Assembly: GCA_021647205.1 (NCBI GenBank)
Contig: JAKIVD010000015.1
Span: 1 to 64,000, forward strand
From: Bacteroidales bacterium
GTDB lineage: Bacteria > Bacteroidota > Bacteroidia > Bacteroidales > F082
Length of the DNA stretch: 64,000 nt
Direction of reading: 5' to 3'
A program made the translations under genes and the position numbers. Shown here one piece after another: positions 25,101 through 39,587 of the stretch. The notes below the pieces were generated by a model, which did no database searches, had not been told where the DNA came from, and saw nothing but the letters and a program-made list of their open reading frames with translations. Every line of letters begins with the position of its first letter. The first letter of the stretch is position 1.

Positions 25101-25855
25101 AGTGGGAATAACAAATAAGAAGCCGGGAAATGTCCCCCATGCTTACCCGCACTGAACAAGGGATGATGGGTAGTAAAAATGACCTTCTTGTCCTTATTCC
25201 GGCGCAGGGCATCTTCAATCCGGATGAACAATTCGGCTTTGTCAGTAAAGCCGCATTCACCGTTAAATCCGGGCTTTTCATTGTTTTGAAACCACCATTG
25301 CGAATCGAAAACAATCAGGGTAATATCGGGTGTTAACTCAATTTCGACCGGACCGGGACAGCCCTGGTCAGGTAAATAGACATTGTTGTTCCCGAAATAT
25401 TGTTCAATGTACCTTTCTTCATTCTTTACCGATTCCCAACCTTGTTTGCGGCCTTTTGCCCAATCGTGATTTCCGGGTAAAAAAAAGACCTGACCGTCGT
25501 ATACATCAAAGGTGTGGAGTATTTGTTTCAGGTCACGTTCTGCCTCTTTGTATTTCTTGTCAAGCGAGTCGGGCAGGCCAAGCGGGTAAACGATGTCTCC
25601 TAAAACGATTACGGCACTTTGCTTCCCGTCTTTGGCAATGTATTGCTGAAGCAATTGCAGGTTTTGTTTCCCGGTTTCGGAATTTTTGATGTCGCCAAGC
25701 AGATAAATGGTGTACATCAGCTTGCTTGTACCGGTCATTTGCCCGGGTTTCCCGCTTTCATTCTCAGTAGCATAAAAAATCTTTTGGGCCTGTACTGTTT
25801 GTCCAATAACAAAAAGTACCATCAGGAAAACTATGCTATGTGTGAAACGATTCAT
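22142..25855 (-). CDS. Metallophosphoesterase fused to outer-membrane surface-antigen barrel
   Basis: A 1237-residue exported protein. I start at ATG 25855, which gives a signal peptide (MNRFTHSIVFLMVLFVIGQTVQA, cut near 23) and overlaps the upstream stop by one base (TGATG); a longer frame adds 31 non-signal residues. The calcineurin-like domain (about 45-330) has LGDIVYPLG, PGNHDWAKG, TTHHPLFSAG and AGHEHNLQY, covering the two-metal ligands. A long middle region (about 400-830) is followed by a BamA/D15-like barrel (about 900-1237) with FLGGKTNLRGFRSNRFAGD and a terminal Phe. The phosphoesterase would thus be held at the outer membrane, probably on its periplasmic or surface face. Substrate unknown; phosphate scavenging or lipid headgroup removal are both possible. 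It is the last gene of the run of 13. Confidence 0.87.
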   Translation of the reverse strand: MNRFTHSIVFLMVLFVIGQTVQAQKIFYATENESGKPGQMTGTSKLMYTIYLLGDIKNSETGKQNLQLLQQYIAKDGKQSAVIVLGDIVYPLGLPDSLDKKYKEAERDLKQILHTFDVYDGQVFFLPGNHDWAKGRKQGWESVKNEERYIEQYFGNNNVYLPDQGCPGPVEIELTPDITLIVFDSQWWFQNNEKPGFNGECGFTDKAELFIRIEDALRRNKDKKVIFTTHHPLFSAGKHGGHFPASYLLFPLLEINKWLYLPLPGFMYTGYRKFLGDIQDLAHPEYKIFGKTLLGIFQDYPNVIYAAGHEHNLQYFHADSLHHIVSGGGGAASYIARKKKKADFACQCSGFGKLSFFSNGDVWMEFITTDTNSLNKTIFSKKLFNKTVFDSRKKEARLQSLDFSDRVVRVKLTEIYNVGKPRRFIMGNNYRNIWNTPVDLPVFDIGHEKGGLSIIKRGGGMQTRSLRLEDKNGKQYVLRSVNKYADKVLPENFQNTIALKPIQDAISASFPFAAITIPTLADAAGVMHTNPKIVWVPDDPRLGVYRKEMADGVFLFEERPAGNREDVASFGFSKKIISTGKVVTKTQNDHDHQIDQKSVLRARLFDMLINDWDRHDDQWRWASFKDGRQTTYRPIPRDRDQAYFVNEGFITRLALITWPTRKFQGFDYTIKDVKGLAFNARHFDRSFLTEPSLDDWLAVATDIKNKVADTVIHKAIAVLPPNIYDSTGLEIENKIKSRRNLLPHYAAEYYRFLAKAVDVTGTKEREFFKVERTENGNTRLSVYALSNKKGKVKEQLYSRDFKFDETKEIRLYGLDGKDIFWVSGSGKRGIKVRIIGGKGKDSIIDESKVRGWGKKTVVYDRKDKKNGIVKSSETRLQLSKNKSVNTYNRKLFKHNRVMPLIWAGYNIDDGIFLGGGVKITRFQFRDSTIQKIRGNLAIQTGAFAVSYEGLFSAVSPTFDLTLTADVSFPRNVDNFFGLGNETQKLTDDKKYYRVRYTYAWVNPMLKQTINKNIYYSFGAFYQYFMVTDTAGRFIGDGYPLLLDSSAYLPHHYTGLNAMFQLDTRNDKALPVRGIFWETEALGYYSIRDEGRNFVKLRSDLRFYLSFRKDPRIVFVLRFGGAMNLGDYEFYHANFLGGKTNLRGFRSNRFAGDVSVFQNTEVRIKLTDIRSYIFNGQAGLLLFNDLGRVWVNGENSSRWHDGYGIGLWLTPFDFTALTLTYNRSAEDGFIDFKFSYLF

Positions 25856-26799
25856 CACATTTTTTCCTTTTGGTGAAACTTCTGAATTGTCCCCTTCCCG
25901 TTTCCCCCTTCGTTTGACAGGTAAAGTGTGGCATCGGGTCCGAAACAAATTCCTTCGGGTTGCCGGTGAATTGTTGCTTTGAGATGAACCAATGCCTTCA
26001 TTCTCCCTTCCCTGGAAAAAACAGCCAGTACATTCCCAACAGAAGCAAGAACATAAAGGTTTCCGGTAACCGGATGGACGGCTATTCCGGAGGGCTGAAA
26101 AGACACATCCCCATCCGAAGCATCAAGAAAAGCCAGCAATTCAATGCCCAGCGATGTGGCAGTGTTGTAGTTTTTGTACTGTTTGATGCTATCCATCTCG
26201 ATAAGAAGAAAGGGTTGAGCATCCAGTTTTTTGGTCTTCAAACGAAAACGATAGACGGTTTTAAACTCTTTGGCCTCTCTTTGTTCATCTTCATCCACCC
26301 AGGGATAAGCTTTGCAGGCAATGAGCAGGGACTGGCTTTGGGAATCGTAAGCCAGTCCCTCAGCATTGTTCTTTTTCGACAGTGCGGTTTTATGCTTTTT
26401 TACTTTTGGATTTCCTCCTTTCAAAAAATCTTTTACCTGGTACAATGTGCCGTTGCTTTTTAATACCCAGGCATCGTCCCCGACGATTTCAAGGCCTTCA
26501 AAATCGCCTTTATCGCCAAAATCGATTTTCCTTTCAACGTCTCCCTTTTTGGTGTTAAAGATGTAAATGCTGGCTTTTTCGTCTTGCACACAGGCCAACT
26601 GGTGTTTGTCGATAGAACTTAAACCGGAAATCTCCACCAGCTTTTTGGGCAGCTCCCATGATTTGTCCGGTTTGTTCAGTTGATAGGGGAATGAGTAACC
26701 AGGCTGTTCAAAAAGCCTGTTGTTGTCATTTTCCTGGCTATAAACACTGCAACAGAAAAATGCAGTAAACAGTAGTAATAATGATTGTTTTAACCACAT
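25855..26799 (-). CDS. SdiA-regulated family beta-propeller protein
   Basis: A 314-residue exported protein. An N-terminal signal peptide (about 1-21, ending VYSQ) precedes repeated propeller blades of the SdiA-regulated family: ELPKKLVEISGLSS, DKGDFEGLEIVGDDAWVL, NNAEGLAYDSQSQSLLIACK, PSGIAVHPVTGNLYVLAS and QPEGICFGPDATLYLSNEG. The family is named from an Escherichia coli relative under SdiA control, but its biochemical function is not known. It starts 1 nt after the cyclase stop and ends overlapping the phosphoesterase gene, so it is clearly in the same transcript. A signal or lipid-sensing role would be speculation. Confidence 0.85.
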   Translation of the reverse strand: MWLKQSLLLLFTAFFCCSVYSQENDNNRLFEQPGYSFPYQLNKPDKSWELPKKLVEISGLSSIDKHQLACVQDEKASIYIFNTKKGDVERKIDFGDKGDFEGLEIVGDDAWVLKSNGTLYQVKDFLKGGNPKVKKHKTALSKKNNAEGLAYDSQSQSLLIACKAYPWVDEDEQREAKEFKTVYRFRLKTKKLDAQPFLLIEMDSIKQYKNYNTATSLGIELLAFLDASDGDVSFQPSGIAVHPVTGNLYVLASVGNVLAVFSREGRMKALVHLKATIHRQPEGICFGPDATLYLSNEGGNGKGTIQKFHQKEKM

Positions 26800-26800
26800 C

Positions 26801-28126
26801 TTAAACCGTATATTTATAAAGTAAAACCTGTTTTTTGCTTCCTTTAATCCGGGTGGCTGCCAGCAACTCGAATGTGTGCTGCCTTTGTTTATCCAGTTGC
26901 TGATATACTTCTTTAGAAATCAGCAGTTGGGTGTTGTACTTTTTGTTCAATTGTTCAATCCGTGAGGCCATGATGACGACCTTCCCTGTGATGGAATATT
27001 GTTTCCGTAGGGATGAACCGATGTTTCCGGTAACCGCTTCATCAAAATGCAGGCCAATACCAATACGGGTTGCCGGGATATTTCCTTTTTTGAACTCGTC
27101 TTGAACTTTGTGAATGATTTCCTGTGCGGTTTCAACAGCTTGTTGACTGCTGTTGTCCAGTTCAACCGGAGCGCCAAAAGTGGCCATGAACCCATCCCCG
27201 AGAAACTGGTTGATAACACCCTGATGTGCCTGTACGATATCAATCATGAATCCGAACAAAGTATTGAGGTAAGAAACAACCTCCTCGGGTTGATGCTGTT
27301 CCACATAAGGGGTAAATTCCCGGATGTCAAGAAACATAATGCATACCTTTTTTCTTGTACCGGAAAGTTCGCTGTGTTTTTTTAAGATATTATCGGCAAT
27401 TTGGGGAGATATTTGTTGCCCGAACAAGTCGATGACCTCATTTTTTTCCTGCATATTCTTCCAGGATGTGATCATTTTCTTTTTAATCAGGTTGGCAACA
27501 AAACCGGCTGCGATTCCGGTTATAATCATAATCAACCCCTGTCCGAGGTATTGCATCCCGCTAAATTCCGGACGTGCCAAGTTAAGTTGTTCGTCAGCAA
27601 AATATGTAGCGTAATACATTGAAATAAGGATGTAGGTAAAGGCAGAGAAGCTTCCGGTGAAAACGGAAAGCTTAAAATTAAGCCGGAAGGTAGAGAGTAC
27701 AATAAAAATAAAATAGGTCAGGGTGGCCGGGGTCTGTAAAATGATGGTTTGCCCGGAGTATTCGATGATGAAAATAAACAGGATGCCGAGCAAACTGATT
27801 TCCGAAAAACTGTTAAAGTAACCGTAAACCCGTGGGTTTAGCAATAAGGATTTGCTTTTTTTGCCCAGTAAATAGTGGACCAGAAATTCATAAATGATAA
27901 TGACAAAGGTGAAAATAAAGATGGCATAAATAGCAATATGCGATTTAAATATCTGTAAGTAGTTGGCTTTATAAAAAAAGTAAATGATAAGTAAAAAACC
28001 GGCTTCCAAACCTAAAAGACCAATCAGAAGAAGCGAACGCAAACGCTCACTTTTGAAGATCTCATCGTTAAAGAGTTCTTCAAGCAAAATCGTTTTTTGG
28101 GTAGATCCCCGGCTTTTAATTGTCAT
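26801..28126 (-). CDS. Membrane class III nucleotide cyclase with altered substrate residues
   Basis: A 441-residue cyclase. About six membrane segments (roughly 31-52, 62-86, 106-123, 132-148, 154-172, 194-214) lead into a catalytic domain (about 255-440). The metal aspartates D267 (FLDIREFT) and D311 (FLGDGF) are kept, as is R389. However, the lysine that contacts the purine in adenylate cyclases is replaced by Q307 (INQFLGDG), the Asp/Thr partner position holds S378, and the transition-state asparagine of the VNxAxR motif is I385 (GKVVIMASR). Substrate and even activity are therefore uncertain. It lies 23 nt after the AUR1-like gene and 1 nt before the SdiA-regulated gene. The product nucleotide could act on the HD-PycTM protein 4.7 kb downstream, but that link is inferred only from proximity. 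Confidence 0.88.
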   Translation of the reverse strand: MTIKSRGSTQKTILLEELFNDEIFKSERLRSLLLIGLLGLEAGFLLIIYFFYKANYLQIFKSHIAIYAIFIFTFVIIIYEFLVHYLLGKKSKSLLLNPRVYGYFNSFSEISLLGILFIFIIEYSGQTIILQTPATLTYFIFIVLSTFRLNFKLSVFTGSFSAFTYILISMYYATYFADEQLNLARPEFSGMQYLGQGLIMIITGIAAGFVANLIKKKMITSWKNMQEKNEVIDLFGQQISPQIADNILKKHSELSGTRKKVCIMFLDIREFTPYVEQHQPEEVVSYLNTLFGFMIDIVQAHQGVINQFLGDGFMATFGAPVELDNSSQQAVETAQEIIHKVQDEFKKGNIPATRIGIGLHFDEAVTGNIGSSLRKQYSITGKVVIMASRIEQLNKKYNTQLLISKEVYQQLDKQRQHTFELLAATRIKGSKKQVLLYKYTV

Positions 28127-28149: not shown

Positions 28150-29070
28150 TTAAATTCTCTCAACAAATTGTTTGATGCTGCTGTCGGCTACCGGATTTTT
28201 TAGAATTCTATCAAATAAAAATAAGGTCATCAGTGCGAGCATAACGCCCATTAAAACATCAATAATGTAATGATGACCCGAATATACAGCCGAAAACCAG
28301 ATGCCGAGCATAAATAGTGTAAAGAGTATTTTAATCCAAAGTTTCATTTTTTTCTTTGCGGCATAAAACAAAACCACCACAGGATAGGCCGCATGAAGCG
28401 AGGGTATGGCAGCCAAAACATTGGCGTTTTTATTGTAGATATTTTCAAAAACCGGGATCCCCACCAATTCATCAAACCTTGCTAAACCGGCACGATTACC
28501 GGGCACACCAATATGCAGGTCGAAACCATAAAGCGCAACATACCAGGGTGGTGCTGCAGGGTAAAGATAATAAATAATAAATCCCAGCAGGTTGACGAAC
28601 AAAAAGACCAGTGCGTATTTAATGAAAAGGCTTTTGTCTGTCAGGTAAAGATACACCCCAAAACCAATGGGAATAGGCATCCAGTTGATGTAAAAAAAGC
28701 CCGAAAGAAAATCAAGGAATTGATTGTTGACGATTGAAAAATACTCGTTTGGCGTAAGTAAACTGCCCTTATAGTGGATGCCAAAAATGGATTTTTCAAA
28801 GGCGTAAGGTTCTTGAATATGCGGTGTTGACACCTCGTAATTGGGAAGAATCCGCATGGAATCGTAGATAATCCAGAAAAGGATGAAGATGGAAAAAGCC
28901 AGGATGAAGCGGCGTGATGTATCGCTCACATAAAATGCAGACAACCAAAGAACGACTAAAAAATAGTGTTCACTTCTAATCTCACCAATAACAAAATTCC
29001 ACAACAAATAAACAAGTACCAGCAGTGTGTTGATGGTGATGTTTTTTTTGGTGAAGCGGTGGAATTCCAT
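28150..29070 (-). CDS. AUR1-like PAP2-superfamily transferase (inositol phosphorylceramide synthase candidate)
   Basis: A 306-residue polytopic membrane protein. From ATG 29070 the PAP2/AUR1 motifs are LYPAAPPWY (169-177), IPSLHAAYP (222-230, H226) and YSGHHYIIDVLMG (263-275, H267 and D271). The PAAPPWY and SLHAAYP blocks are characteristic of fungal AUR1 and of the Bacteroides enzyme BT_1522, which moves phosphoinositol from phosphatidylinositol to ceramide. About seven hydrophobic segments surround an extracytoplasmic active site. A TTG three codons upstream (29079) would overlap the preceding stop; ATG leaves a 1-nt gap. All enzymes needed to make both substrates are encoded just upstream in the same run, which strongly supports this role. 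Direct activity is not proven by sequence. Confidence 0.88.
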   Translation of the reverse strand: MEFHRFTKKNITINTLLVLVYLLWNFVIGEIRSEHYFLVVLWLSAFYVSDTSRRFILAFSIFILFWIIYDSMRILPNYEVSTPHIQEPYAFEKSIFGIHYKGSLLTPNEYFSIVNNQFLDFLSGFFYINWMPIPIGFGVYLYLTDKSLFIKYALVFLFVNLLGFIIYYLYPAAPPWYVALYGFDLHIGVPGNRAGLARFDELVGIPVFENIYNKNANVLAAIPSLHAAYPVVVLFYAAKKKMKLWIKILFTLFMLGIWFSAVYSGHHYIIDVLMGVMLALMTLFLFDRILKNPVADSSIKQFVERI

Positions 29071-29071
29071 T

Positions 29072-29605
29072 TTAATCAATTAAAATTGTTTGTGTCGTTT
29101 TTTCTCCGGTTTGCAGGTCTTTGCCAAAAAGCCTGATGTATTTGACTTTGGGCCAGACACCCGAATTATCGGCAAAAATGTACATATGCTCCAACCGCGA
29201 AAGTTTGTCGTTAATCATGGTAAGTAAAACAGCTTTAAAAGCGTCTGTTTGTTTCAGCCAAAATGCATGCTCTTTTTCGGCAACCAACTCTACTTTGTAG
29301 TCGGAACTGTTCTTGTTTTTTTGGCAATCAACACCATAAGCATACCATTTTTCAATACTTCGCAACTCCATTCTTTGCCCCTGCTCATCGTATCGGCGCC
29401 AGTACACATCAATGGGTTTGTCGTTGATTAAGCTGCCATCTTTGTCAAAATTTGCATCGTAAACAATGGTGTTGGCGTTGTGGTTCCGTTGAATGTAAAA
29501 CAACAACTGATCTGTTTCCGGTGGCACCGGATAGTTCTCGTTTTGCGCAAAGCCGGATGAACAAAATCCCAAAACAACAAGTAGCTGAACAACAAAAAAT
29601 CTCAT
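29072..29605 (-). CDS. DUF4833 exported protein
   Basis: A 177-residue protein with a signal peptide (about 1-20, ending GFAQ) and a compact beta-rich body matching DUF4833. Landmarks are FYIQRNHNANTIVYDANF, PIDVYWRRYDEQG and KYIRLFGKDLQTGE. No catalytic motif is obvious. It overlaps the ceramide reductase-like gene by 4 nt (ATGA) and ends 1 nt before the AUR1-like gene, so it is fixed inside the sphingolipid operon. A periplasmic helper of phosphoinositol transfer or lipid handling is a fair inference; function is otherwise unknown. Confidence 0.82.
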   Translation of the reverse strand: MRFFVVQLLVVLGFCSSGFAQNENYPVPPETDQLLFYIQRNHNANTIVYDANFDKDGSLINDKPIDVYWRRYDEQGQRMELRSIEKWYAYGVDCQKNKNSSDYKVELVAEKEHAFWLKQTDAFKAVLLTMINDKLSRLEHMYIFADNSGVWPKVKYIRLFGKDLQTGEKTTQTILID

Positions 29606-30597
29606 AACAATCCTTTTTGTTTGTACCAGGCAATTGCTTCATGCACCCCTTTTTCCAAATCGTATTTTGGTTTGAAATGGAAATCTTTTTCCAAAGCCGA
29701 GCTGTCGCAGAGCCAGTTTGTCTGCGATATTTCTTTGTATTTCTCAGTATTCAGGGTGGGCACTTTATCAAATAAGGCACACGACAGCTTTTCGTTCACA
29801 AACGCAATTTGTTTGATTAGAAATTTGGGAAATACAAGGCTCAGTGTTTTTTTATTCAATTCTTTTTTAACGAGTTGGTTAAATTCAACGGCCGTATAGT
29901 ATTTAAGGTCGGAAACAAAATATGCTTTTCGCGTAATGCCGGAGTCTAAAGCATTGATGAGCAGCCGGGCCAGGTCTTTAACATAAATAAATGTAAGGTA
30001 TTGGTTTTTGGTTCCAATGTAGGTTTCCAAACCACTTTTTATACTTTTATACATCAGGTAGTAATCCTTTTCGCGGGGGCCGTAAACGCCTGTCGGGCGG
30101 AAGATTAAAAACGGAAAATCGTCTAAAGACTGAAGATATTGCTCGGCTTTTAGTTTGCTTTTTCCATATTCTGAAACAGGCTTTGGGCTGTCGGTTTCCT
30201 TTATCGGGGCCAGTGTTTTTTCATTCCCGGGACCGTAGGCTGCCAGGCTGCTGATGTGGATAAACTTATCGGGAACCTGATGGGTTTCGTGCAAGGCTTC
30301 AATCAGGTTTTTGCTAAACTGATAATTGACCCTGTCGAACATTTCTTTTGTGCAGGTTTTGGTAACACCCGCATTGTGTATGATGTAGTCGAAATTTCCT
30401 GTTGCAAGCAGGTTTTGTTTGATTGCATTTTTATCTGACAAATCGGTTTTAAAGAATTGGATGCGTGCGTCCTGCAAATACCGTAAATTGCTGGTTTCAC
30501 GAATACCGGCATACACATCAAAGCCTTGGTTTAAGGCTTCTTCAACCAAAAAACCACCGATAAAACCACTGGCACCCGTAATCAAAAGTTTTTTCAT
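29602..30597 (-). CDS. cerR: NAD-dependent epimerase/dehydratase family ceramide reductase (CerR-like)
   Basis: A 331-residue extended short-chain dehydrogenase. The start at 30597 gives MKKLLITGASGFIGG with the dinucleotide loop GASGFIG (8-14); upstream codons to 30666 are not needed. The catalytic set is S116/S117 and Y144xxxK148 (SEYGKSK). In Caulobacter the CerR protein of this family reduces the keto-ceramide made by bacterial ceramide synthase. Here the gene follows the GNAT-type ceramide synthase gene by 10 nt, which itself follows serine palmitoyltransferase, exactly the enzyme set of that pathway. A sugar epimerase role is possible from family alone but fits the context less well. 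Confidence 0.83.
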   Translation of the reverse strand: MKKLLITGASGFIGGFLVEEALNQGFDVYAGIRETSNLRYLQDARIQFFKTDLSDKNAIKQNLLATGNFDYIIHNAGVTKTCTKEMFDRVNYQFSKNLIEALHETHQVPDKFIHISSLAAYGPGNEKTLAPIKETDSPKPVSEYGKSKLKAEQYLQSLDDFPFLIFRPTGVYGPREKDYYLMYKSIKSGLETYIGTKNQYLTFIYVKDLARLLINALDSGITRKAYFVSDLKYYTAVEFNQLVKKELNKKTLSLVFPKFLIKQIAFVNEKLSCALFDKVPTLNTEKYKEISQTNWLCDSSALEKDFHFKPKYDLEKGVHEAIAWYKQKGLL

Positions 30598-30607
30598 TTT
30601 TTTCAGA

Positions 30608-31735
30608 TTATACCAGTTTCCTGATGTAAATTCTTCTGCGCAAATGCTGACGCATTTCATAGGCATCGAACAATTGATGTGAATCTTTGTTCTCTTCCAG
30701 AATGTGGCTTGTCACAGCTGTTTTAATCCCCATGTCAATGTACGCCTGCATCAGGCTGTTAAAAAATACTGCTGTCACTCCTTTTTTCCTGTAGTCTTGT
30801 TTTACACCAAGCAAAAGCATATCAACCGTATCGTTTTTTTTCAGTGCTTTAAGGATGTGTATAAAACCGAAGAGAAACAGTTTCCCTTTGGCTTTCTGCA
30901 AAGCTTTGGAAAGAGAAGGAACCGAAATACCGAAAGCCACCACATCATCGTCATTATCCAGGACAAAGCAAACAAACCGTGTGTCAATCATTGAAAAGTA
31001 ATCTTTTGTGTATTTTTCGATCTGTTTGTCGTTCAGAGGAACATAACCGTATAAATGCTGAAAAGCATCATTTAAGGTATAGAACATTTTTTTGGCATAC
31101 GGCAAAAGCTGTTTCGGTTTTTTTGCATCCAATATTCTTAAATCATATTTTTTCAATACCAGGTCGCTAATTCGTTTGACGCGTTCCGGCACTTCTTCCG
31201 GTACTTTAACTTCCTTCTGTATCCAGTCAACATCTTTTCTATAACCCAGCTTTTCCATGTGTACCGGATAATAGGGGTAATTGTAAATAGTTGCCTGTGT
31301 CCCTATTTCGTTGAAGCCTTCCACCAACATGCCTTCCAAATCCATGTCAGTAAACCCCAACGGGCCGTGAACGGCCGTCATTTCCAACTGTTTTGCCCAG
31401 TCTTCAACGGTTTTAATGAGAGCTTCCGAAACATTAAAATCGTCAATAAAATCTATCCACCCGAAACGAACGTACTTTTCGTTCCAGATTTTGTTGGATT
31501 TATGGTTGATAATTCCCGCTATCCGGCCCACTATTTTACCCTCTTGAAAAGCCAGCCAGTAGCGGGCATCGCAAAAGTCGAAAGCCGGATTTTTTCTACG
31601 TACTAAACTTGATTTCTCAAAAGAATGAAGTTGGGGAACCCTGAATTTATTGCCCTTGTAAAGCCGGTCGGGAAAAGAAATAAAGCTGTTTAGGTCGGCT
31701 TTTGATTTTACTTCTTTTATTTCAATATTGTCCAT
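30608..31735 (-). CDS. GNAT-superfamily bacterial ceramide synthase (bCerS-like)
   Basis: A 375-residue acyltransferase of the GNAT superfamily. I use ATG 31735 (MDNIEIKEVKSKADL), leaving 1 nt after the serine palmitoyltransferase stop. An N-terminal substrate domain contains GRIAGIINHKSNK and HGPLGFTDMDLEGMLVEGF; the acyl-CoA region is near DMLLLGVKQDYRKKGVTAVF (about 305-322), with the Q/RxxG-type loop. In Caulobacter a protein of this layout N-acylates 3-ketosphinganine, unlike the eukaryotic TLC-fold ceramide synthase. Close linkage with serine palmitoyltransferase and a CerR-like reductase supports that assignment. The acyl donor and chain length cannot be read. Confidence 0.83.
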   Translation of the reverse strand: MDNIEIKEVKSKADLNSFISFPDRLYKGNKFRVPQLHSFEKSSLVRRKNPAFDFCDARYWLAFQEGKIVGRIAGIINHKSNKIWNEKYVRFGWIDFIDDFNVSEALIKTVEDWAKQLEMTAVHGPLGFTDMDLEGMLVEGFNEIGTQATIYNYPYYPVHMEKLGYRKDVDWIQKEVKVPEEVPERVKRISDLVLKKYDLRILDAKKPKQLLPYAKKMFYTLNDAFQHLYGYVPLNDKQIEKYTKDYFSMIDTRFVCFVLDNDDDVVAFGISVPSLSKALQKAKGKLFLFGFIHILKALKKNDTVDMLLLGVKQDYRKKGVTAVFFNSLMQAYIDMGIKTAVTSHILEENKDSHQLFDAYEMRQHLRRRIYIRKLV

Positions 31736-31736
31736 T

Positions 31737-32939
31737 TTAGATTGTGTTAAGTACCAATTCTTTTCCAATAAATGCCCTGCTTTTCACCAAAATATCAATA
31801 GCCCGGTCTATTTGCTCGCGGGTGTGTGTTGCCATTAACGAGAAACGCAATATTGCTTTTCCTTTATCCACGGCAGGATGAACAACCGGATTGACATACA
31901 TTCCGTTGTTGAGCAAAACACTGGCAATGGTGTAGGTTTTCACATCTTCACCAATAAAAATCGGGATAATGGGTGTTGTGCTGTTTCCGATTTCAAAATT
32001 TTCCTGCAACAAACAATTTTTTGCATAGGCTGTATTTTCCCACAGCCGGTTGATGCGTTCGGGTTCTTCCTGAATAATATGTAAAGCCTTTAACACAGTG
32101 GCTGCCGATGCAGGCGGAATGCCGGCACTAAATATGAGTGAGCGGGCATGGTGCTTTAAATAATTGATGGTGTCTTTATCGCTGGCAATAAAGCCTCCGA
32201 GAGAGGCCAGTGATTTGCTAAAAGTACCCATAATAACATCGGTTTTGTGGGTCAGGTTAAAAGAAGACGCAGTACCGGCACCACCTTCTCCCATTACCCC
32301 AAGGCCATGTGCATCGTCAAGCATAATTGAAGCATTGTATTTATCAGCCAGTTCAACAATTTTGTCCAAGGGGGCAACATCGCCTTCCATGCTAAAAACG
32401 CCATCTGTTACAATAAGTGTTATTTCGTTAGGATTTGTCCTTTGCAACGTTTTTTCCAGGGAGGCCATATCATTGTGCTTATATTTGAGTGTTTTCGCAA
32501 ATGCAAGCCGGCAGCCTTCAATAATTGATGCGTGGGATTTTTCATCAATAAGAAGATAGTCGTTTCGTCCGACAAGACTGGGAATAGTACCAATATTTGC
32601 CTGGAAGCCGGTGCTAAAAACGGTTACTGCGGGTTTCCCTACAAATTCGGCCAGTTTGTTTTCCAGTTCATCGTGCAGGTCCAGATTGCCATTCATGAGC
32701 CGCGAACCGGAAGCTCCCGTGCCATATTTTCTCAGGGCAAGTTCTGCTGCTTCTATTAGCCGGGGATGATTGGTCAGGCCTAAATAACTATTCGAGCCAA
32801 ACATCAACACTTTTTTACCCCGGATGTACACCTCTGTGTCCTGTCCTGATTCCAGTGAATGATAGAATGGATAGATCCCTTTATCCATAAAAAACTGTGG
32901 TAAAGTAAATTTCGAAAATTTCTGTTGTAAAGATTTCAT
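31737..32939 (-). CDS. spt: Serine palmitoyltransferase (alpha-oxoamine synthase)
   Basis: A 400-residue PLP-dependent alpha-oxoamine synthase that joins serine and an acyl-CoA to give 3-ketosphinganine, the first step of sphingolipid synthesis. ATG 32939 gives MKSLQQKFSKF. Landmarks: GSNSYLGL (about 48-55), GTGASGSRLMNG (about 73-84), DDAHGLGVMG (208-217) and the PLP lysine K242 in TFSKSLASLGG. Relatives include KBL and AONS, but the neighbouring ceramide synthase, ceramide reductase and AUR1-like genes settle the identity. The protein is homodimeric and cytoplasmic in characterised bacteria. It starts 10 nt after the DUF5686 gene. Confidence 0.93.
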   Translation of the reverse strand: MKSLQQKFSKFTLPQFFMDKGIYPFYHSLESGQDTEVYIRGKKVLMFGSNSYLGLTNHPRLIEAAELALRKYGTGASGSRLMNGNLDLHDELENKLAEFVGKPAVTVFSTGFQANIGTIPSLVGRNDYLLIDEKSHASIIEGCRLAFAKTLKYKHNDMASLEKTLQRTNPNEITLIVTDGVFSMEGDVAPLDKIVELADKYNASIMLDDAHGLGVMGEGGAGTASSFNLTHKTDVIMGTFSKSLASLGGFIASDKDTINYLKHHARSLIFSAGIPPASAATVLKALHIIQEEPERINRLWENTAYAKNCLLQENFEIGNSTTPIIPIFIGEDVKTYTIASVLLNNGMYVNPVVHPAVDKGKAILRFSLMATHTREQIDRAIDILVKSRAFIGKELVLNTI

Positions 32940-32949
32940 AATGACTGGT

Positions 32950-35502
32950 TTAAAAATCAAACTTAAATCTTGCCCTGATGCCGTATTCCTGCACGTTGGG
33001 ATTGTCTAAATAGCTTAATCGTTTTACTAAATCTACTCTGAAGAATTTTAAAATATTACCGATGCCCACACTCGCTTCCATATAAGGTTCGTTGTGCAAG
33101 GTAAAAGTGGTTGGGTTTCCGTTTACATCGGTCGGAAACAGCATAAGCCCTGTTGTTACTTCGGGATTGTTTTTCGTGGTAACCCTGCCGTAAATTCCTT
33201 TAAACGAAATAATGGAGCGCCATTTTAAGCGGCGTAACAGAGGGATTTTGTTTAAGATAAATCCGTTAAAATGGTGTTCAACAAAAAGAGAGACATATTC
33301 GTCGCTTACAAACTCAAGAAAATTCATCAGGTTGTAAGAGCGTATCTGATACGAATAGGTTTGGTTTGCCCGGTGAATAAACAATTTTGGGAAAGGTATT
33401 CCGCTGCCAAACAGTTTTCCGGCTTCAATATCAATATTGGTAAAGCCAATGGGCGAAAGGTAAAACCGTTTGAAGAAATTGAATTGCAGTTTGGCATAGG
33501 AAAAATCGGAATTCAAAACATCCTTAAAACCCTGTGTATAGCTAAATTGGAAGATGGGGCTTTTGGTAATGATCGGTGTTTTGTAATCCATGCCCTGATA
33601 GGTTTTTTTGTTGGGTGCAAAACGGATTATTGTGATTAATTCGCTTGAGGTGATTTTGTCAATCGAGTGGTCGTCGTAATTAAAAAACCAGGTTCCACCC
33701 GGTTCTTCAATCTGGTGTTTTATTCTAAATGTTGTTGAAATATCGTTGGCCCAATCGCGATAATGCTCAATAAGAAACATGTCGTAATACAGGATTTTAT
33801 CGGCCACCCCCCGTTTAAACGATAAGAGGAAATTGTCTTCGTTGATGAACATCATTTCCATTCCGGGAAAATTGGTTTCCCTTTGGTACATGGCTGTGAT
33901 GGTGTGTTCAGGGCTTTTGTTGAGCGGGTGTTTGTTGAGCGACCATTTGGCACGCGCCGAATATTTGAAGCGTTCATCTTTAAAACCGTAAACCAGAAAC
34001 CCGTCGAGGCGAAAAGTTTTGCTGAATTTGTCACTCGTTCTTCCGCCCACACGAAGCCGGAAACCTTCCACATCGTTGAAACTGTAAAAGGTGTTGACCG
34101 GGCCAATGTCAATTTTATTGAAATTCCAGTAGCCTGCCACCAGCAGCATAACAACATCAATGGTTCGCCTGAATGCCGGAACGTTTTGCACGCTGTCCAC
34201 CATCGTATAGATGTTTTTCTCCTGCTCACTAAGTGCAGTTATCCGGTTCTCCTCCCAATATTGCTCGTCGCGATTTGCATTTTCGGGCAGTTGAATTTTA
34301 TTCACAACGCCACCAAAAACAGTATCGGGGATTTCTTTGTTGAAAACATAGTTGTCGTAAGCCACGGTTTTTTTACCGAACATTCCCGTTCCGGTTTTGC
34401 CGATATTAAAATCGATGATGACTTCATCGCGGGTCAGCATCCACGATTGGTTATTGATAAATTTGAACTCCTGGATAATCTGCAAGTCACTCACAAAATT
34501 CAGGTTGATGTCTTCGGTAACCCGCATGTTTACTTTGATAACCGCCAGCCTTTCGTCGTTGGTTACGTATAAATTTCCTTTAAAGGCCAGGTCTTGTTTA
34601 TTTCTGGGCTGAAACACCAGGTTGATGCAGTCGTAACCATTGATGTTGACGGTGTCGATGATGTGAAACTTATAAATGGATGGCGCCAAAGTAGATATGG
34701 GGCTTGTAAACTGATTGGTAAGCAGGTCGATGTTGTTTTCATAAATATCAATATCCTGATACATATTATCAATCATAAAACCTACGCCCTCGTTATCGAT
34801 ATAATCGTGAAAACCAATCATCTTTGTTCCTTTTACATACTCTTTTTCACTCTTTGGTTTTTTTCGGAAATACACTTCCGACAAGGTTTCTTTTAGAAAA
34901 ACAGGCAAATAAGGTTTGCCATTGATTTCGGCCGTATCCACATAATTGAAGATAAACTGAAGTTTTTTAAATACCTTTTTCTTCCTGAATTTCTCGGTAA
35001 TATTGTTCAGGTCGAATTCAACTTTTTCATATTTATCATATTGGTAATAATCCAAATGCTCTTTCCTGTTTAAGTTTTTATTTTCTACAATACGCCTTAT
35101 CAAATCAACAGCCGGGTTATTTTTATTCCGGTACCGTTTTTTTTTTGAGACCACCTCAACCTCCTGCAGGCTGATCGAACTTGATTCCAGTTCGAAATCA
35201 ATAACCTGCATTGTTTCGGGAACTACCGGTTTAACTTGTTTTTCGTAACCTACAAAAGAGGCTATGATTTTATTCGATGCCCATTGGGTACTGATGTTGT
35301 ACCGGCCATTGTAATCCGTAATGGTCCCGATGTTTTTTCCTTCGAAAACAATGTTCACAAAGGGCAAGGGTTCTTTTGTTTTCGCATCTGTCACTTTTCC
35401 ACGTATTTGTGTGAGCTTTTGTGCATCAGCAGATGAAACTGTTAAAATCAACGACAGCAATAAAAAACTGACAACTCCCTGTATCGTTGGCTTTCGGTTC
35501 AT
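32950..35502 (-). CDS. DUF5686 outer-membrane protein with N-terminal carboxypeptidase-regulatory-like domain
   Basis: An 850-residue outer-membrane protein. A signal peptide (about 1-27, ending SSADA) precedes a CarbopepD_reg_2-like domain (about 32-115: IRGKVTDAKTKEPLPFVNIVF, IGTITDYNGRYNI), then the DUF5686 body from about 130, and a C-terminal beta-barrel with alternating strands ending in RARFKFDF. The N-terminal domain is the same plug-like module seen in SusC-type receptors, but no TonB plug domain follows. It overlaps the GtrA gene by 4 nt and precedes serine palmitoyltransferase by 10 nt, so it is firmly inside the operon. It is a candidate outer-membrane factor for sphingolipid placement; this is inference. 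Confidence 0.85.
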   Translation of the reverse strand: MNRKPTIQGVVSFLLLSLILTVSSADAQKLTQIRGKVTDAKTKEPLPFVNIVFEGKNIGTITDYNGRYNISTQWASNKIIASFVGYEKQVKPVVPETMQVIDFELESSSISLQEVEVVSKKKRYRNKNNPAVDLIRRIVENKNLNRKEHLDYYQYDKYEKVEFDLNNITEKFRKKKVFKKLQFIFNYVDTAEINGKPYLPVFLKETLSEVYFRKKPKSEKEYVKGTKMIGFHDYIDNEGVGFMIDNMYQDIDIYENNIDLLTNQFTSPISTLAPSIYKFHIIDTVNINGYDCINLVFQPRNKQDLAFKGNLYVTNDERLAVIKVNMRVTEDINLNFVSDLQIIQEFKFINNQSWMLTRDEVIIDFNIGKTGTGMFGKKTVAYDNYVFNKEIPDTVFGGVVNKIQLPENANRDEQYWEENRITALSEQEKNIYTMVDSVQNVPAFRRTIDVVMLLVAGYWNFNKIDIGPVNTFYSFNDVEGFRLRVGGRTSDKFSKTFRLDGFLVYGFKDERFKYSARAKWSLNKHPLNKSPEHTITAMYQRETNFPGMEMMFINEDNFLLSFKRGVADKILYYDMFLIEHYRDWANDISTTFRIKHQIEEPGGTWFFNYDDHSIDKITSSELITIIRFAPNKKTYQGMDYKTPIITKSPIFQFSYTQGFKDVLNSDFSYAKLQFNFFKRFYLSPIGFTNIDIEAGKLFGSGIPFPKLFIHRANQTYSYQIRSYNLMNFLEFVSDEYVSLFVEHHFNGFILNKIPLLRRLKWRSIISFKGIYGRVTTKNNPEVTTGLMLFPTDVNGNPTTFTLHNEPYMEASVGIGNILKFFRVDLVKRLSYLDNPNVQEYGIRARFKFDF

Positions 35503-35894
35503 TTATTGAAAACAAAAAACCGGTTCATTAAAAAATTAAAGCCCAAACCAACGATTACCGAGACAATAATTTTTGAAATGATTGCATCGATATTTGTGTT
35601 TTCAACAAGGAGGTACAGCCCTGCCGTGTTCAGTAAAATGCTGCTCCCCCAAACCAAAAAATACTTTTTCGCCTGCTGACTTAAATGGCCTTCCCTGCTC
35701 ATAAATGCCCAGTTCCTGTTCAGGATAAAAGCAGCAATCCCGCCACTGACTGCACTGATAAATGTGGCGGCAACATACCAAAGCTCAAATACTTCGGTAA
35801 GAAATACAAAAATCAAAAAATCGACAATTGTAGCCAAAATGGCAACCACGTTGTACCTGAAAAATGAGGTCAGTATTTTTGGCTTTCCGGACAT
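35499..35894 (-). CDS. GtrA family membrane protein
   Basis: A 131-residue protein with four membrane segments (about 11-31, 38-58, 75-93, 102-124), matching GtrA. The family is associated with moving polyprenyl-linked sugars or with cell-surface polysaccharide synthesis. Its start directly follows the PgpA-like stop and its end overlaps DUF5686 by 4 nt. Within an inositol-lipid operon it might flip or help present phosphatidylinositol or a precursor, but no sequence feature shows its substrate. Confidence 0.88.
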   Translation of the reverse strand: MSGKPKILTSFFRYNVVAILATIVDFLIFVFLTEVFELWYVAATFISAVSGGIAAFILNRNWAFMSREGHLSQQAKKYFLVWGSSILLNTAGLYLLVENTNIDAIISKIIVSVIVGLGFNFLMNRFFVFNK

Positions 35895-36374
35895 CTAAAT
35901 CAGTTTGAAATAAAACAAAACCTGAATGACAATGAGGCTGTAAATTCCGGCCAGCACATCGTCAAGCATTACACTCCAGTCGTTTTTCATCCGGTCGAAC
36001 CTTTTGATAAACAAAGGTTTCATAATATCGAAAAACCTAAAAAGCAGCAATGCGTACAGATAGTACTGCCACTTGAACGGCATGGCCACAACTGCAATCC
36101 AAACACCAGCTATTTCATCAATTACAATTTGGGGGGCATCGTGTTCCCAAATTTTATGCACCATTTTGATGGAGTAAGCGCCAACAAAAAGCACAAAAAT
36201 TATAGCAAAAAGGTTCAGGGCAAAAACAAGCCACGGTTCAGTAATTAAACGATTCAATACAAAATTGAATGAGTAAAACAACAAAATACCAAGGACAGAA
36301 CCTGCTGTTCCCGGAGCAAAAGGTACAAAGCCCGTACCTAAACCTGATGCTATAATTTTATGTAATTTCATCAA
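35895..36374 (-). CDS. PgpA-family phosphatase (phosphatidylinositol-phosphate phosphatase candidate)
   Basis: A 159-residue membrane phosphatase of the phosphatidylglycerophosphatase A family. Motifs are GLGTGFVPFAPGTAGSVLG (11-29) and the acidic DEIAGVWIA (about 81-89), the usual PgpA signature, with about four membrane segments. In Bacteroides the PgpA homolog in the inositol-lipid cluster removes phosphate from phosphatidylinositol phosphate. Its position 3 nt after the inositol-phosphate synthase gene and one gene from the phosphatidyltransferase supports the same role here. A housekeeping phosphatidylglycerophosphatase is the alternative. Confidence 0.88.
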   Translation of the reverse strand: MMKLHKIIASGLGTGFVPFAPGTAGSVLGILLFYSFNFVLNRLITEPWLVFALNLFAIIFVLFVGAYSIKMVHKIWEHDAPQIVIDEIAGVWIAVVAMPFKWQYYLYALLLFRFFDIMKPLFIKRFDRMKNDWSVMLDDVLAGIYSLIVIQVLFYFKLI

Positions 36375-36377
36375 TGA

Positions 36378-37700
36378 TTAATTATCTTCTTCGTAATAAT
36401 CCAGCCCTAAATAATTGATCAGGGATTCGCCCATTAAATGCCGCAGGGTATTTTCGAATTTGACTTTTTGCAGGAAGATGTCGTGAATGGGCACCAAGCC
36501 TTCCTTTGTTTGCGGCGATTTAAAATAGAACGAAAGCCATTCTTGTATCCCTTTCATATTTGCCCGTTGTGCCAGGTCCATAAATACAGCCAGGTCGAGG
36601 ACAATCGGTGCGGCAAGTATGGAATCTTTGCACAGGAAATTGACCTTGATTTGCATCTTGTAACCCAGCCATCCGAAAATATCGATATTGTCCCAGCTTT
36701 CTTTGTCATCGCCTTTTGGCGGATAATAATTGATGCGTACTTTGTGATACATATCTTTGTAAAGTTCGGGATATTTTTCAGGTTCTAAAACACTATCCAG
36801 CACACTTAGTTTGGAAACTTCTTTTGTTTTAAACGAATCAATATCATCCAAAACTTCACCATCCCGGTTACCAAGAATGTTTGTTGAAAACCATCCGTCA
36901 ACACCCAATAAACGTGTTTTTAAGCCCGGGGCTAAAATGGTTTTCATTAAGGTTTGCCCGGTCTTGAAATCCTTGCCGGCAATGGGCACGTTTAATTGGT
37001 TGGCCAGTTCGATCAACGCGGGTGTGTCAACCGTTAAGTTCGGGGCGCCATTGGCAAAAGCAACCCCGCTTTTAATAGCGGCATAGGCATAAATCATGCT
37101 GGGCGCTATGGCGGGATGGTTTTCCAGGAGTGCCTGTTCAAACTTTTCAACCGAAAGGTGAACATCTGATATTTGGGTATACACTTCGGTTGAAGCACAC
37201 CAAATCATAACCAGTCGATCGCAGGCGTTTTCTTTTTTGAATGTTAGAATATCTGTTATTAAAGCTTTGGCAGCATCCATTTTTGTAGGTGAGTGTTTCA
37301 CATTTTCCCCATCAATATTTTTAACAAACTGATGATCGAAAACGGCCGGCATGGGCTTAATCGCTGACAATTCTTCTTTTAATTTATTCAGTAAATCTTT
37401 ATCTAAAACACCCGCGTTTACAGCCGACTCGTAAGCCGTGTCGTAAAATATATCCCAACCCCCGAAAACCAGGTCTTCCATCAAAGCCAGGGGAACAAAA
37501 TCATTGATGTTTGGGTTTCTGTCTTCGGTTCTTTTCCCCAGTCGTATTTTGCCCATTTGAGAAATCGAACCGATTGGTCTCCCAAGGCCTTTGTTGGTAG
37601 CAATTACACCGGCCATAAATGTGGTTGAAACTGCGCCCATTCCCGGTGTTAAAACGCCTAGTTTTCCTTTCGGATGCTGAACTTTTTGTTTTGAATTCAT
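36378..37700 (-). CDS. myo-Inositol-1-phosphate synthase
   Basis: A 440-residue NAD-dependent isomerase that turns glucose 6-phosphate into inositol 3-phosphate. Family landmarks: KLGVLTPGMGAVSTT (13-27, NAD loop), MIWCASTEVY (about 165-174), AGKDFKTGQTLMKTILAP (about 241-258) with the active-site lysines, and GWFSTNILGNRDGEVL (about 268-283). These blocks match the DFKSGQT and NxLGNxDG motifs of INO1-type enzymes. It starts 24 nt after the CDP-alcohol transferase and ends 3 nt before the PgpA-like gene, which fits the supply of the headgroup for phosphatidylinositol. No truncation is visible. Confidence 0.95.
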   Translation of the reverse strand: MNSKQKVQHPKGKLGVLTPGMGAVSTTFMAGVIATNKGLGRPIGSISQMGKIRLGKRTEDRNPNINDFVPLALMEDLVFGGWDIFYDTAYESAVNAGVLDKDLLNKLKEELSAIKPMPAVFDHQFVKNIDGENVKHSPTKMDAAKALITDILTFKKENACDRLVMIWCASTEVYTQISDVHLSVEKFEQALLENHPAIAPSMIYAYAAIKSGVAFANGAPNLTVDTPALIELANQLNVPIAGKDFKTGQTLMKTILAPGLKTRLLGVDGWFSTNILGNRDGEVLDDIDSFKTKEVSKLSVLDSVLEPEKYPELYKDMYHKVRINYYPPKGDDKESWDNIDIFGWLGYKMQIKVNFLCKDSILAAPIVLDLAVFMDLAQRANMKGIQEWLSFYFKSPQTKEGLVPIHDIFLQKVKFENTLRHLMGESLINYLGLDYYEEDN

Positions 37701-37724
37701 TTTTTTAATTTTTAATCTATAATT

Positions 37725-38417
37725 TCATTGCATCTTTTTTCTGCAATGATTTAACCGTTGAAATGCTGTGTAATTGGTTAGTACAGCAAGTATAAATATG
37801 GGTATGGTAAAAATTGAAATATTTTCAAAAAGAGGAAAAGGCAGCCAGTCGACCACAATTTTAAAGTCGCCGGTATAATAAGAAATTACACCGTAAAGTA
37901 TGGCTGAAACCCCAATGGTCAGTACTCTTTCAGGACGTTGCATGATTCCGATTTTACATTCTTCACCCAATCCTTCGGCCCTGGCCCTTACGTAGCTGAC
38001 CATGATGGAACCAATCATTGCAATAAATGCAAAAACACCACTTAAGAAGTAATGGTAGGAAACCAGATAATAAGCGATTCCGAAGAACATGATCATTTCG
38101 CTGTAACGGTCGATTACCGAGTCGAACAGGGCGCCGAATTTTGTCATATTGTTGGTTTTGCGCGCCAACTGACCGTCAAGCATATCAAAAATGCCGGCCA
38201 GCAGCAGTACTATTCCAAACCAGCTAATATACCTGACGTCGCCCCTGACCCTTATTTCGGCACCCACAATCAGAATTACTGTCGATGCTATTGTAATGAT
38301 AAATCCAATTATGGTGATACCATTTGGTGTTATCCCGGTTTTTATCAGCAGCTTAATGATTGGGTTGAGTGCCCCGTAAGCGCTCTTTTTTAGCAATTCC
38401 CATGTGTTTTTTTTCAT
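37725..38417 (-). CDS. CDP-alcohol phosphatidyltransferase (phosphatidylinositol-phosphate synthase candidate)
   Basis: A 230-residue membrane enzyme. The CDP-alcohol motif DG-x2-AR-x8-G-x3-D-x3-D is complete: DMLDGQLARKTNNMTKFGAL then FDSVIDR (about 78-105). Six hydrophobic segments follow the usual pattern. The family joins CDP-diacylglycerol to an alcohol; with the inositol-phosphate synthase gene 24 nt downstream and a PgpA-type phosphatase next, the expected product is phosphatidylinositol phosphate, as for Bacteroides BT_1523. A GTG two codons upstream (38423) is an alternative start. It is the first gene of the 13-gene run; 134 nt separate it from the LpxR-like gene. Confidence 0.9.
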   Translation of the reverse strand: MKKNTWELLKKSAYGALNPIIKLLIKTGITPNGITIIGFIITIASTVILIVGAEIRVRGDVRYISWFGIVLLLAGIFDMLDGQLARKTNNMTKFGALFDSVIDRYSEMIMFFGIAYYLVSYHYFLSGVFAFIAMIGSIMVSYVRARAEGLGEECKIGIMQRPERVLTIGVSAILYGVISYYTGDFKIVVDWLPFPLFENISIFTIPIFILAVLTNYTAFQRLNHCRKKMQ

Positions 38418-38551
38418 ATTCACCAGTTAATGTTAGCTAATATTATTTGTGTTCAAAAAGTCAGTCCAAAAGAATCATTAAAAATACTATTCTATACATA
38501 ATTGTTTTCACAGCGCTGTTATTTCCGTCACAGTGTGCACTTTGGGCCTTT

Positions 38552-39517
38552 TTAAAACGAAAACCCAATATTCAACCCACCGTAACGGTGAATAACCCCA
38601 TTGATAAAATCCTGCGAATTGAACTTGATCATATAGCGTATATAAAAGCTTTTATAATAAATATTTACGCCTGTACGTACCTGGTACTGACGCGAGATAA
38701 TATCTTGAGTGGGCAGATCAATCGCTTCATCGGTACTAAAAAGCCCTCCCTGCAATGTTGCATCATAAAAAACTCCCTGTAAATTGGCTTCGAACACCCA
38801 CTGCCATACCAATCGGTTTTTGTACTTTTTGGGTTGTGCATATTCACCCAGTGTTTTATTTACATTTCCAAATTTGATTAATAAGCCAAGCCCGATTCTG
38901 TCGGTTAAAGTTCCTACCCTTGCTTTGGCAAATGGGATAAAATGATTGGCTGTCCAGTCCCCGAAAAAGCCTTTTTCGATCCGGAACTGGTAGTCAATCA
39001 GAAAAGTATTGTTCAATTGATTTTCCCAGCCAAGGGGTATGGGCGATCCGATAATTTTGTGTACAGTAGTTTGTGCCCATTCGCCCCCTGCAGCCGGCCC
39101 CATTACACCAATCCCCAGTTCGTTGGATATTTTCAGGTGTTTCTCCGGGTTTATCAAAACCGAGAAGTTGGTGGCCAGTAAATAGGCTGAGTAGGGACGG
39201 TCGTCTTCAATCGAATCGGGCCTGAGAATGGAGTAGGGGGTAAATATGCGTTGCTCCAGCCCAAAACCGCTGAAGCGAATGGATTCCGGGTTTTTCGATT
39301 TTAAAATGAGCTGGGCCGGATCGTGATTCATTTTTTTATTCAGATAAGTGAGTGCAGTTCCCGAGGTATAATAGTGATCGCTTTTAAACAACAGATCGTT
39401 CTCAATTTCAATCACCAAACGGTTTGTTTTTTGGTTGAAATCAACCGCCATCTCGGTCCGCTGGCCTAAAGCCAGTTGACTGATAATTAACAAACCGATG
39501 AGCGTAAAAGCTTTCAT
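38552..39517 (-). CDS. lpxR: LpxR-like lipid A 3'-O-deacylase
   Basis: A 321-residue outer-membrane barrel of the LpxR (DUF2219) family, which removes the 3'-acyloxyacyl group from lipid A. After a signal peptide (about 1-18, ending ALGQ) comes the family block EIENDLLFKSDHYYTSG with the N-D pair and Thr, then RPYSAYL and GVMGPAAGGEWAQTTVHKIIG with the conserved histidine. The terminal residue is Phe, as for BAM substrates. A TTG three codons upstream also opens the frame; ATG 39517 fits the signal peptide better. It sits between the export-type genes and the sphingolipid operon, all on the same strand, which suggests envelope lipid remodelling as a shared theme. Confidence 0.9.
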   Translation of the reverse strand: MKAFTLIGLLIISQLALGQRTEMAVDFNQKTNRLVIEIENDLLFKSDHYYTSGTALTYLNKKMNHDPAQLILKSKNPESIRFSGFGLEQRIFTPYSILRPDSIEDDRPYSAYLLATNFSVLINPEKHLKISNELGIGVMGPAAGGEWAQTTVHKIIGSPIPLGWENQLNNTFLIDYQFRIEKGFFGDWTANHFIPFAKARVGTLTDRIGLGLLIKFGNVNKTLGEYAQPKKYKNRLVWQWVFEANLQGVFYDATLQGGLFSTDEAIDLPTQDIISRQYQVRTGVNIYYKSFYIRYMIKFNSQDFINGVIHRYGGLNIGFSF

Positions 39518-39587
39518 GATTATCAAATAAACAAATATTGGTTCTCAAAATAATGTGTTTAGAAATGCTTTGCATTTGAAACCGTCA

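Follow-up and report, generated by a model that had tools for sequence, protein, structure and literature searches.

A ten-gene locus of a Bacteroidales genome probably encodes inositol phosphorylceramide synthesis and is built from two modules

RESULTS

A compact run of ten genes

We analysed a 64,000-nt stretch of a Bacteroidales genome (contig JAKIVD010000015.1, positions 1 to 64,000; hereafter the window), in which ten genes, seven of them with homology to enzymes of inositol lipid and ceramide synthesis and three accessory, follow one another on the minus strand from 38423 to 28150 (Table 1). A first-pass annotation had described ten co-oriented genes with gaps of 24 nt or less, and all ten open reading frames (ORFs) and their spacing were confirmed. 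In transcription order the junctions are gaps of 24, 3 and 0 nt followed by overlaps of 4, 11, 32, 59, 4 and 8 nt; overlaps were computed with the earliest possible start codons, and the larger ones are upper bounds. All ten genes scored above the Pfam gathering threshold, and their domains are, in order, CDP-OH_P_transf, MIPS, PgpA, GtrA, CarbopepD_reg_2 with DUF5686, Aminotran_1_2, Acetyltransf_1, Epimerase, DUF4833 and PAP2_3. The seven pathway enzymes that the annotation had named are present, as judged from Pfam, NCBIfam and PDB homologues of serine palmitoyltransferase (SPT), myo-inositol-1-phosphate synthase (MIPS) and AUR1, and the expected catalytic motifs are intact; its gene list had passed over GtrA, DUF5686 and DUF4833. 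The GC content of the operon is 40.5%, compared with 44.1% for the rest of the window.

The run of minus-strand genes extends past the AUR1-like gene into a co-oriented cyclase ORF, and a consensus scan found no minus-strand terminator-like site inside the gap between the two. In the same kind of scan, promoter-like sites were not enriched over shuffles (29 versus 34.6) and terminator-like sites were above shuffles (35 versus 16.3). Because the latter are scattered on either strand and genes fill almost the whole stretch, they do not indicate the operon ends, about which these counts say nothing firm.

Table 1. Genes of the operon in transcription order, and the gene that follows it (E values from phmmer against PDB sequences)
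Gene product	Position	Strand	Supporting matches
PIP (phosphatidylinositol phosphate) synthase (CDP-alcohol phosphatidyltransferase), first gene	37725..38423	-	PF01066 63.6 bits; NF052561 PIPSynBT1523 311 bits (cut-off 350)
Myo-inositol-1-phosphate synthase (MIPS)	36378..37700	-	PF07994 335 bits; PDB 7nwr E 6e-165
PgpA-type phosphatase, likely PIP phosphatase	35895..36374	-	PF04608 136.6 bits
GtrA-family protein with four transmembrane segments, candidate lipid flippase	35499..35894	-	PF04138 78 bits; four hydrophobic segments
CarboxypepD_reg + DUF5686 protein, predicted Omp85-like barrel	32950..35502	-	PF13715, PF18939
Serine palmitoyltransferase (SPT)	31737..32960	-	NF047600 610 bits; PDB 8guh/3a2b E 1e-140
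GNAT-family N-acyltransferase, probable ceramide synthase	30608..31768	-	PF00583 34.3 bits
Extended SDR, probable ceramide (3-keto) reductase, CerR-like	29602..30666	-	PF01370 117.6 bits
DUF4833, secreted or membrane-anchored periplasmic protein	29072..29605	-	PF16117 122 bits; N-terminal hydrophobic segment 3-21
AUR1-like (PAP2_3) phosphoinositol transferase, probable inositol phosphorylceramide synthase	28150..29079	-	PF14378 81.8 bits; NF052609 340 bits (cut-off 480)
Adenylate/guanylate cyclase, possible read-through member	26801..28126	-	PF00211; 23 nt downstream of the AUR1-like gene

Recurrence of the locus and its two modules

We scanned a collection of genome contigs with an alignment of the AUR1-like protein alone; 585 stretches were confirmed, and the best 80, which sample close relatives, were kept. 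All ten genes stood together on one strand in 22 of these 80 loci, in carriers that include Pontibacter, Rufibacter, Pedobacter, Ferruginibacter, unplaced Bacteroidales, and Flavobacteriales. Chance adjacency is ruled out, because the full set recurs so often in loci found through a single protein, and recurs also in relatives from the window's family. The first-pass proposal of an inositol phosphorylceramide (IPC) pathway is well supported for the window; the single-locus arrangement itself is common, which rules out a novelty specific to this genome. The block is widespread and spans several classes of Bacteroidota. Its order is that of the window in nine of the 22 loci, SPT-GNAT-SDR-MIPS-PgpA-GtrA-DUF5686-PIP synthase-DUF4833-AUR1 (trio first) in 12, and a third order in one.

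The operon combines a ceramide trio (SPT-GNAT-SDR) with a second, inositol module. The whole trio was found in 29 of the 44 full-view loci (those of the 80 that cover at least 20 kb), and the other 15 had no SPT in view. This contrasts with earlier work as cited in an excerpt of PMC11334938 (here and below, papers are cited from excerpts), according to which the SPT, GNAT and SDR-type genes of sphingolipid-producing Bacteroidota lie at a distance from one another. Moreover, the inositol module holds together in several genomes without SPT (L088, L100, L113 and L127), and hence DUF4833 and DUF5686 belong to that module and not to the trio.

In a draw of 395 genomes across the phylum, the AUR1 model found matches in 57, of which 14 scored at least 313 bits and the remaining 43 below 42 bits. 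An SPT gene lay within ∼10 kb of the AUR1-like gene in seven of the 14, and in one more (L060) GNAT and SDR come into view where the stretch ends. Strong AUR1-like matches occurred in 11 of 100 genomes drawn from the window's family; the window genome is counted in both draws, and among the 14, the seven and the 11. Both same-genus genomes drawn (completeness 92 and 94%) were without the AUR1-like gene, SPT, a close SDR (at least 234 bits) and DUF4833, a joint absence that fits gain or loss as a block. In a tree of AUR1-like proteins, from which type II PAP2 loci (L040-L043) and short duplicate loci (L044-L050) were excluded and a 230-aa filter removed none of the 104 rows, the window protein grouped with Bacteroidales relatives. 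The supported group of 32 rows also holds Saprospiraceae, Flavobacteriales, Lutibacter and a Chlorobiota metagenome-assembled genome (MAG), and this mixture suggests transfer or MAG misbinning. At one locus, L037, only a short fragment matches the SDR and the GNAT is matched in part, which may reflect a broken gene or an assembly fault.

The inositol branch and the AUR1-like protein

The closest solved homologue of the window MIPS is the inositol-3-phosphate synthase 7nwr, which we take to be the Bacteroides thetaiotaomicron enzyme. The last gene product aligned over residues 49-302 with the AUR1 structure 9vj3 (E 5e-20, phmmer against the PDB); 9vj3 and 9ivc are presumably yeast AUR1, whose chain in these structures has 401 residues compared with ∼309 aa for the window protein, which is encoded in an operon. 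The motifs APPWY, PSLH and HHYxxD are common to the window protein and the AUR1 structures, and H229, H269, H270 and D274 of the latter two motifs are invariant among 16 aligned AUR1-like proteins. The PF14378 score and these conserved His, His and Asp motifs place it among PAP2_3 transferases; because it missed the cut-off of NF052609 (phosphoinositol dihydroceramide synthase), we use the broader label AUR1-like. The PIP synthase carries DMLDGQLAR...GALFDSVID at residue 80, which matches the PIP synthase motif DX2DGX2AR...GX3DX3D as given in PMC9246714.

MIPS, PIP synthase, the PgpA-type phosphatase, GtrA and the AUR1-like gene all lie in one run, as do genes of the same five families in the BT_1522-BT_1526 cluster of B. 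thetaiotaomicron, whose expected product is phosphoinositol dihydroceramide (PI-DHC)/IPC. In that species, PI-DHC/IPC depends on BT_1522, BT_1523 and BT_1526 in the knockouts described in the excerpts of PMC9246714 and PMC8791184, and on BT_1525 as well in PMC9246714, where deletion of this PgpA-like gene leads to accumulation of PIP-DAG. The contrast drawn by the first-pass annotation was borne out by the same source: BT_1522-BT_1526 form one cluster and the SPT gene, BT_0870, lies elsewhere, whereas the window has SPT, GNAT and SDR in the same operon. The window also differs in having PIP synthase first and in having DUF4833, which was not found in two same-order genomes that exceed the NF052609 cut-off and that we took as Bacteroides-like (G446 and G329).

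A gene of the fatty-acid-hydroxylase type stands directly upstream of the AUR1-like gene in 18 of the 80 loci (PF04116 in L107, at 9367-9987; homologues by tblastn in the same place in 17 others) and in none of the SPT-negative loci. It possibly serves ceramide hydroxylation, and its distribution suits a ceramide acceptor where SPT is present.

The ceramide trio

The window SPT is the sole SPT-grade match (at least 609 bits) in its genome, the next two hits of NF047600 reaching 351 and 314 bits. Against the PDB it scored 472 bits with 8guh/3a2b, which we take to be the Sphingobacterium SPT enzymes, compared with 297 bits for the next enzyme, of KBL type. It carries TFSKS at residue 246, whose lysine is presumably the pyridoxal phosphate lysine, and both its nearest characterised relatives and this motif assign it to SPT.

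Co-location, which the first-pass annotation had taken to fix the roles of the less certain members, helps to assign the SDR and, to a lesser degree, the GNAT. A close SDR was present in 13 of 13 SPT-positive and in 0 of 12 SPT-negative genomes tested: two same-genus genomes gave weak SDR matches only (at most 45 bits), and the other ten, all AUR1-bearing, gave no match at an E cut-off of 1e-30. Because it tracks SPT in this way, there is good evidence that the SDR is the sphingolipid reductase. Caulobacter spt, bcerS and cerR are likewise an SPT, acyltransferase and reductase trio; that of the window is joined to inositol-lipid genes. According to the excerpt of PMC11087976, which likens CerR to NDUFA9, SPT and bCerS of Caulobacter are cytoplasmic and CerR is periplasmic with no predicted transmembrane region. 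A simple hydrophobicity scan found no signal or transmembrane segment in the window SDR, which does not decide its location, since the periplasmic CerR is also without a predicted transmembrane region.

The GNAT is likely the ceramide synthase, mainly on gene position. Matches below 80% coverage and identical copies were excluded from the GNAT tree, and removal of a fragment that repeats the window's own locus (L144) then left 82 of 83 rows, of which 54 adjoin an SPT gene; in the supported clade of the window GNAT this holds for 18 of 21.

DISCUSSION

Proposed pathway

From the layout, homology and recurrence of the genes we infer that the ten genes are very probably one transcription unit that makes IPC. 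On the cytoplasmic face, MIPS would convert glucose-6-phosphate to inositol phosphate, PIP synthase would couple this to CDP-diacylglycerol, and the PgpA-type phosphatase would strip the phosphate to give phosphatidylinositol (PI). SPT, GNAT and SDR would supply ceramide. The AUR1-like enzyme would then transfer phosphoinositol from PI to (dihydro)ceramide. The active site of yeast AUR1 faces the lumen, and by analogy this transfer probably takes place on the periplasmic face. The finished inositol lipid would have to reach the outer membrane, and GtrA, DUF4833 and DUF5686 would be accessory proteins, most likely for moving PI or IPC over the inner membrane, across the periplasm and on into the outer membrane. 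For B. thetaiotaomicron, PMC9246714 reports effects of inositol lipids on resistance to antimicrobial peptides and on fitness in the host. What the present analysis adds to the first-pass annotation is the modular structure, a fusion of PIP synthase with DUF4833, carriers that are SPT-negative, and the three accessory genes.

Candidate export functions

PMC11087976 (2024) states, in the part available, that neither a flippase nor a transporter had yet been identified for bacterial sphingolipids; the operon supplies three conserved candidates for this envelope crossing in a single locus. DUF5686 was found in 52, DUF4833 in 56 and GtrA in 49 of the 80 loci, many of which are incomplete. The window GtrA protein is of the same family as BT_1524 and in a matching place, and could flip PI to the side where the AUR1-like enzyme acts. 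For BT_1524 the published results differ: its deletion lowered IPC and raised PI in PMC8791184, and the mutant showed unchanged thin-layer chromatography (TLC) in PMC9246714, each as excerpted.

DUF4833 was found in 12 of the 15 AUR1-bearing genomes compared and in none of five that lack a strong AUR1-like gene. Counting only loci in which both domains exceeded 60% coverage (which excludes 12 loci that show DUF4833 without a complete PIP synthase), it was separate from PIP synthase in 33 and fused to it as one ORF in 11 of 44. The fused ORFs, of 424-452 codons with no stop (L097, L100, L107, L108, L110, L113, L122, L123, L127, L138 and L140), occur in Pedobacter, Spirosoma, Sediminibacterium, Chitinophaga and an unplaced Chitinophagaceae. 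All 11 retain the PIP synthase motif, and in the three proteins inspected a hydrophobic segment resembling the signal peptide of free DUF4833 lies between the parts. A DUF4833 model (pLDDT 91) gave no Foldseek match at E ≤ 0.001 and VIA Z values of 3.6 at most; this absence of a structural match does not amount to evidence for a new fold.

The DUF5686 protein is predicted to carry an Omp85-like barrel. The C-terminal barrel of its AF2 model (pLDDT 79) aligned with the SAM-complex, TamA and BamA barrels (for SAM-complex barrels, Foldseek E 5e-8 and VIA Z up to 20.4, the latter over 304 residues with a root-mean-square deviation of 4.1), from which the protein differs by its CarboxypepD_reg N-terminus. 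Its sequence matched no Pfam Omp85 domain (PF01103) at E up to 10, matching DUF5686 only, and no POTRA domain was identified; hence we file it as having an Omp85-like barrel and not as an Omp85 member. A profile search of PDB sequences found the N-terminal CarboxypepD-like parts only, mostly of SusC-type receptors. A carboxypeptidase-regulatory-like homologue of BT_1527 occurs near inositol-lipid clusters in PMC9246714, and BT_1527 may be a DUF5686 protein.

An export role is plausible for these three candidates, whose individual functions are hypothetical. The specific scheme, in which the operon joins synthesis to dedicated outer-membrane delivery, with GtrA flipping PI, periplasmic DUF4833 handling the lipid, DUF5686 inserting it, and SPT-less lineages loading a different, unknown acceptor, is one that we put forward tentatively, as a possibility. 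It is unlikely that the three have no part in inositol-lipid metabolism and are carried by chance or for general envelope assembly, an explanation that would suit the unchanged TLC of the BT_1524 mutant and the breadth of the DUF5686 family: G067, although without a strong AUR1-like gene, has a 50% identical copy, and AUR1-bearing G132 has no close copy. DUF4833, moreover, is missing from three of the 15 AUR1-bearing genomes and lies on another contig in G504. Against these stand the recurrence of all three genes among the 80 loci, the restriction of DUF4833 to AUR1-bearing genomes in the comparison above, and its fusion to PIP synthase. Our literature search found no paper naming DUF4833 or DUF5686.

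The acceptor of the AUR1-like enzyme

Several observations weigh against IPC as the product. The nearest specific NCBIfam models all scored strongly but below their curated cut-offs (PIPSynBT1523, 311 of 350 bits; SerpalmtaseCFB, 610 of 640; PhinosDhcerSyn, 340 of 480). Two family relatives carry the operon without SPT and GNAT (L038) or without SPT (L039), SPT being elsewhere in both genomes. A GNAT paralogue of the window genome that is not linked to SPT is 39% identical to the window GNAT, closer than the SPT-linked GNATs of distant loci (L053 and L056-L061, 27-31%). In PMC9246714, Flectobacillus major departs from the otherwise matching genes and TLC bands, in a direction that the excerpt does not state. 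Finally, when SPT was sought in 30 AUR1-bearing genomes, a non-random sample picked for their names or for loci without SPT in view, 20 had it and 10 did not. The ten are three Spirosoma isolates, Arcicella rosea, two Sediminibacterium, a Vicingus MAG, a Cytophagales MAG, G348 (a single 7.0-Mb contig with 99% completeness) and G490; their best SPT-model hits reach at most 356 bits, the level of other alpha-oxoamine synthases, and none has a close SDR. Two SPT-negative sequences in the AUR1-like alignment (L062 and L063) keep the catalytic residues.

In these genomes the AUR1-like enzyme must have another acceptor or merely resemble IPC synthase, and thus an AUR1-like gene alone does not prove a ceramide acceptor; as proof of the acceptor, the co-location argument of the first-pass annotation does not extend to AUR1-like enzymes generally. 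The SPT-negative genomes that keep the enzyme point to an unknown lipid. Carried over to the window, such a view would have PI and ceramides made and phosphoinositol moved to a hydroxy-lipid or surface polymer, with IPC minor or absent. We consider this quite improbable. In its favour, the inositol module and the AUR1-like gene are kept in Spirosoma, Arcicella, Sediminibacterium and Vicingus, and on a quick AUR1-like tree SPT absence takes five changes, four of them forced by starred branches, so that it is not confined to one odd lineage. The window SPT, however, sits in the same operon, PI-DHC requires BT_1522 in PMC9246714 as excerpted, two proteins that exceed the NF052609 cut-off (L051 and L052) share a tree with the window protein, and the hydroxylase-type gene precedes the AUR1-like gene in no SPT-negative locus. 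IPC remains the likeliest product of the window operon. The literature matches listed contained no paper about Pedobacter lipids by title.

The N-acylation step

That another enzyme N-acylates the sphingoid base while the GNAT modifies a different amine is very unlikely, and would be in keeping with the split of SPT-adjacent GNATs into two deep clades and with a paralogue group near the window clade that is away from SPT and includes both a second gene of the window genome and genes of the two same-genus SPT-negative genomes. The copies of G446, G329 and a Prevotella join the window clade before these paralogues, at a fork with a support of 88 only. The counts beside SPT in the GNAT tree speak for a ceramide synthase instead, as does a remote homologue in a proteobacterial cluster of ceramide type: a Pseudomonas plasmid GNAT, 27% identical across 98% of the length, lies with a class I/II aminotransferase, a phosphopantetheine-binding protein, an epimerase and a fatty acyl-AMP ligase. 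This cluster resembles the SPT-ACP-ACS set of Rhodobacteria (PMC9386255, as excerpted) and is not a characterised reference. A Sphingomonas plasmid GNAT match, considered as a possible bCerS reference, has no SPT annotated within 6 kb. The second GNAT of the window genome (39% identical; L150, 8042-10251, contig C32) is divergent from an SDR gene and near MlaE and ABC transporter genes.

Neighbouring genes and a second locus type

A gene for an LpxR-family outer-membrane protein (38552-39526, minus strand) closely precedes the operon. Downstream, a gene for an SdiA-regulated-domain protein (25855-26799, minus strand) begins 1 nt after the cyclase, and homologues of both also follow AUR1 in L118. 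A 1268-aa protein with a calcineurin-like phosphoesterase and an Omp85 domain is encoded at 22142-25948 (minus strand); the distance of its homologues from AUR1-like genes is ∼1-4 kb in L078 and L118, and 5-6 kb in L123 and in L102/L053, apparently one genome.

A second type of sphingolipid locus (L040, 2166-8003) comprises a glycosyltransferase, SPT, GNAT, a divergent PAP2_3 protein, an Rce1-like membrane protein and an SDR. L041-L043 have GNAT, a PAP2-type protein and SDR, and SPT was found in L041 and not in L042 or L043. All four gave weak AUR1-model hits (31-38 bits), and the divergent PAP2_3 protein of such loci could be another ceramide head-group transferase.

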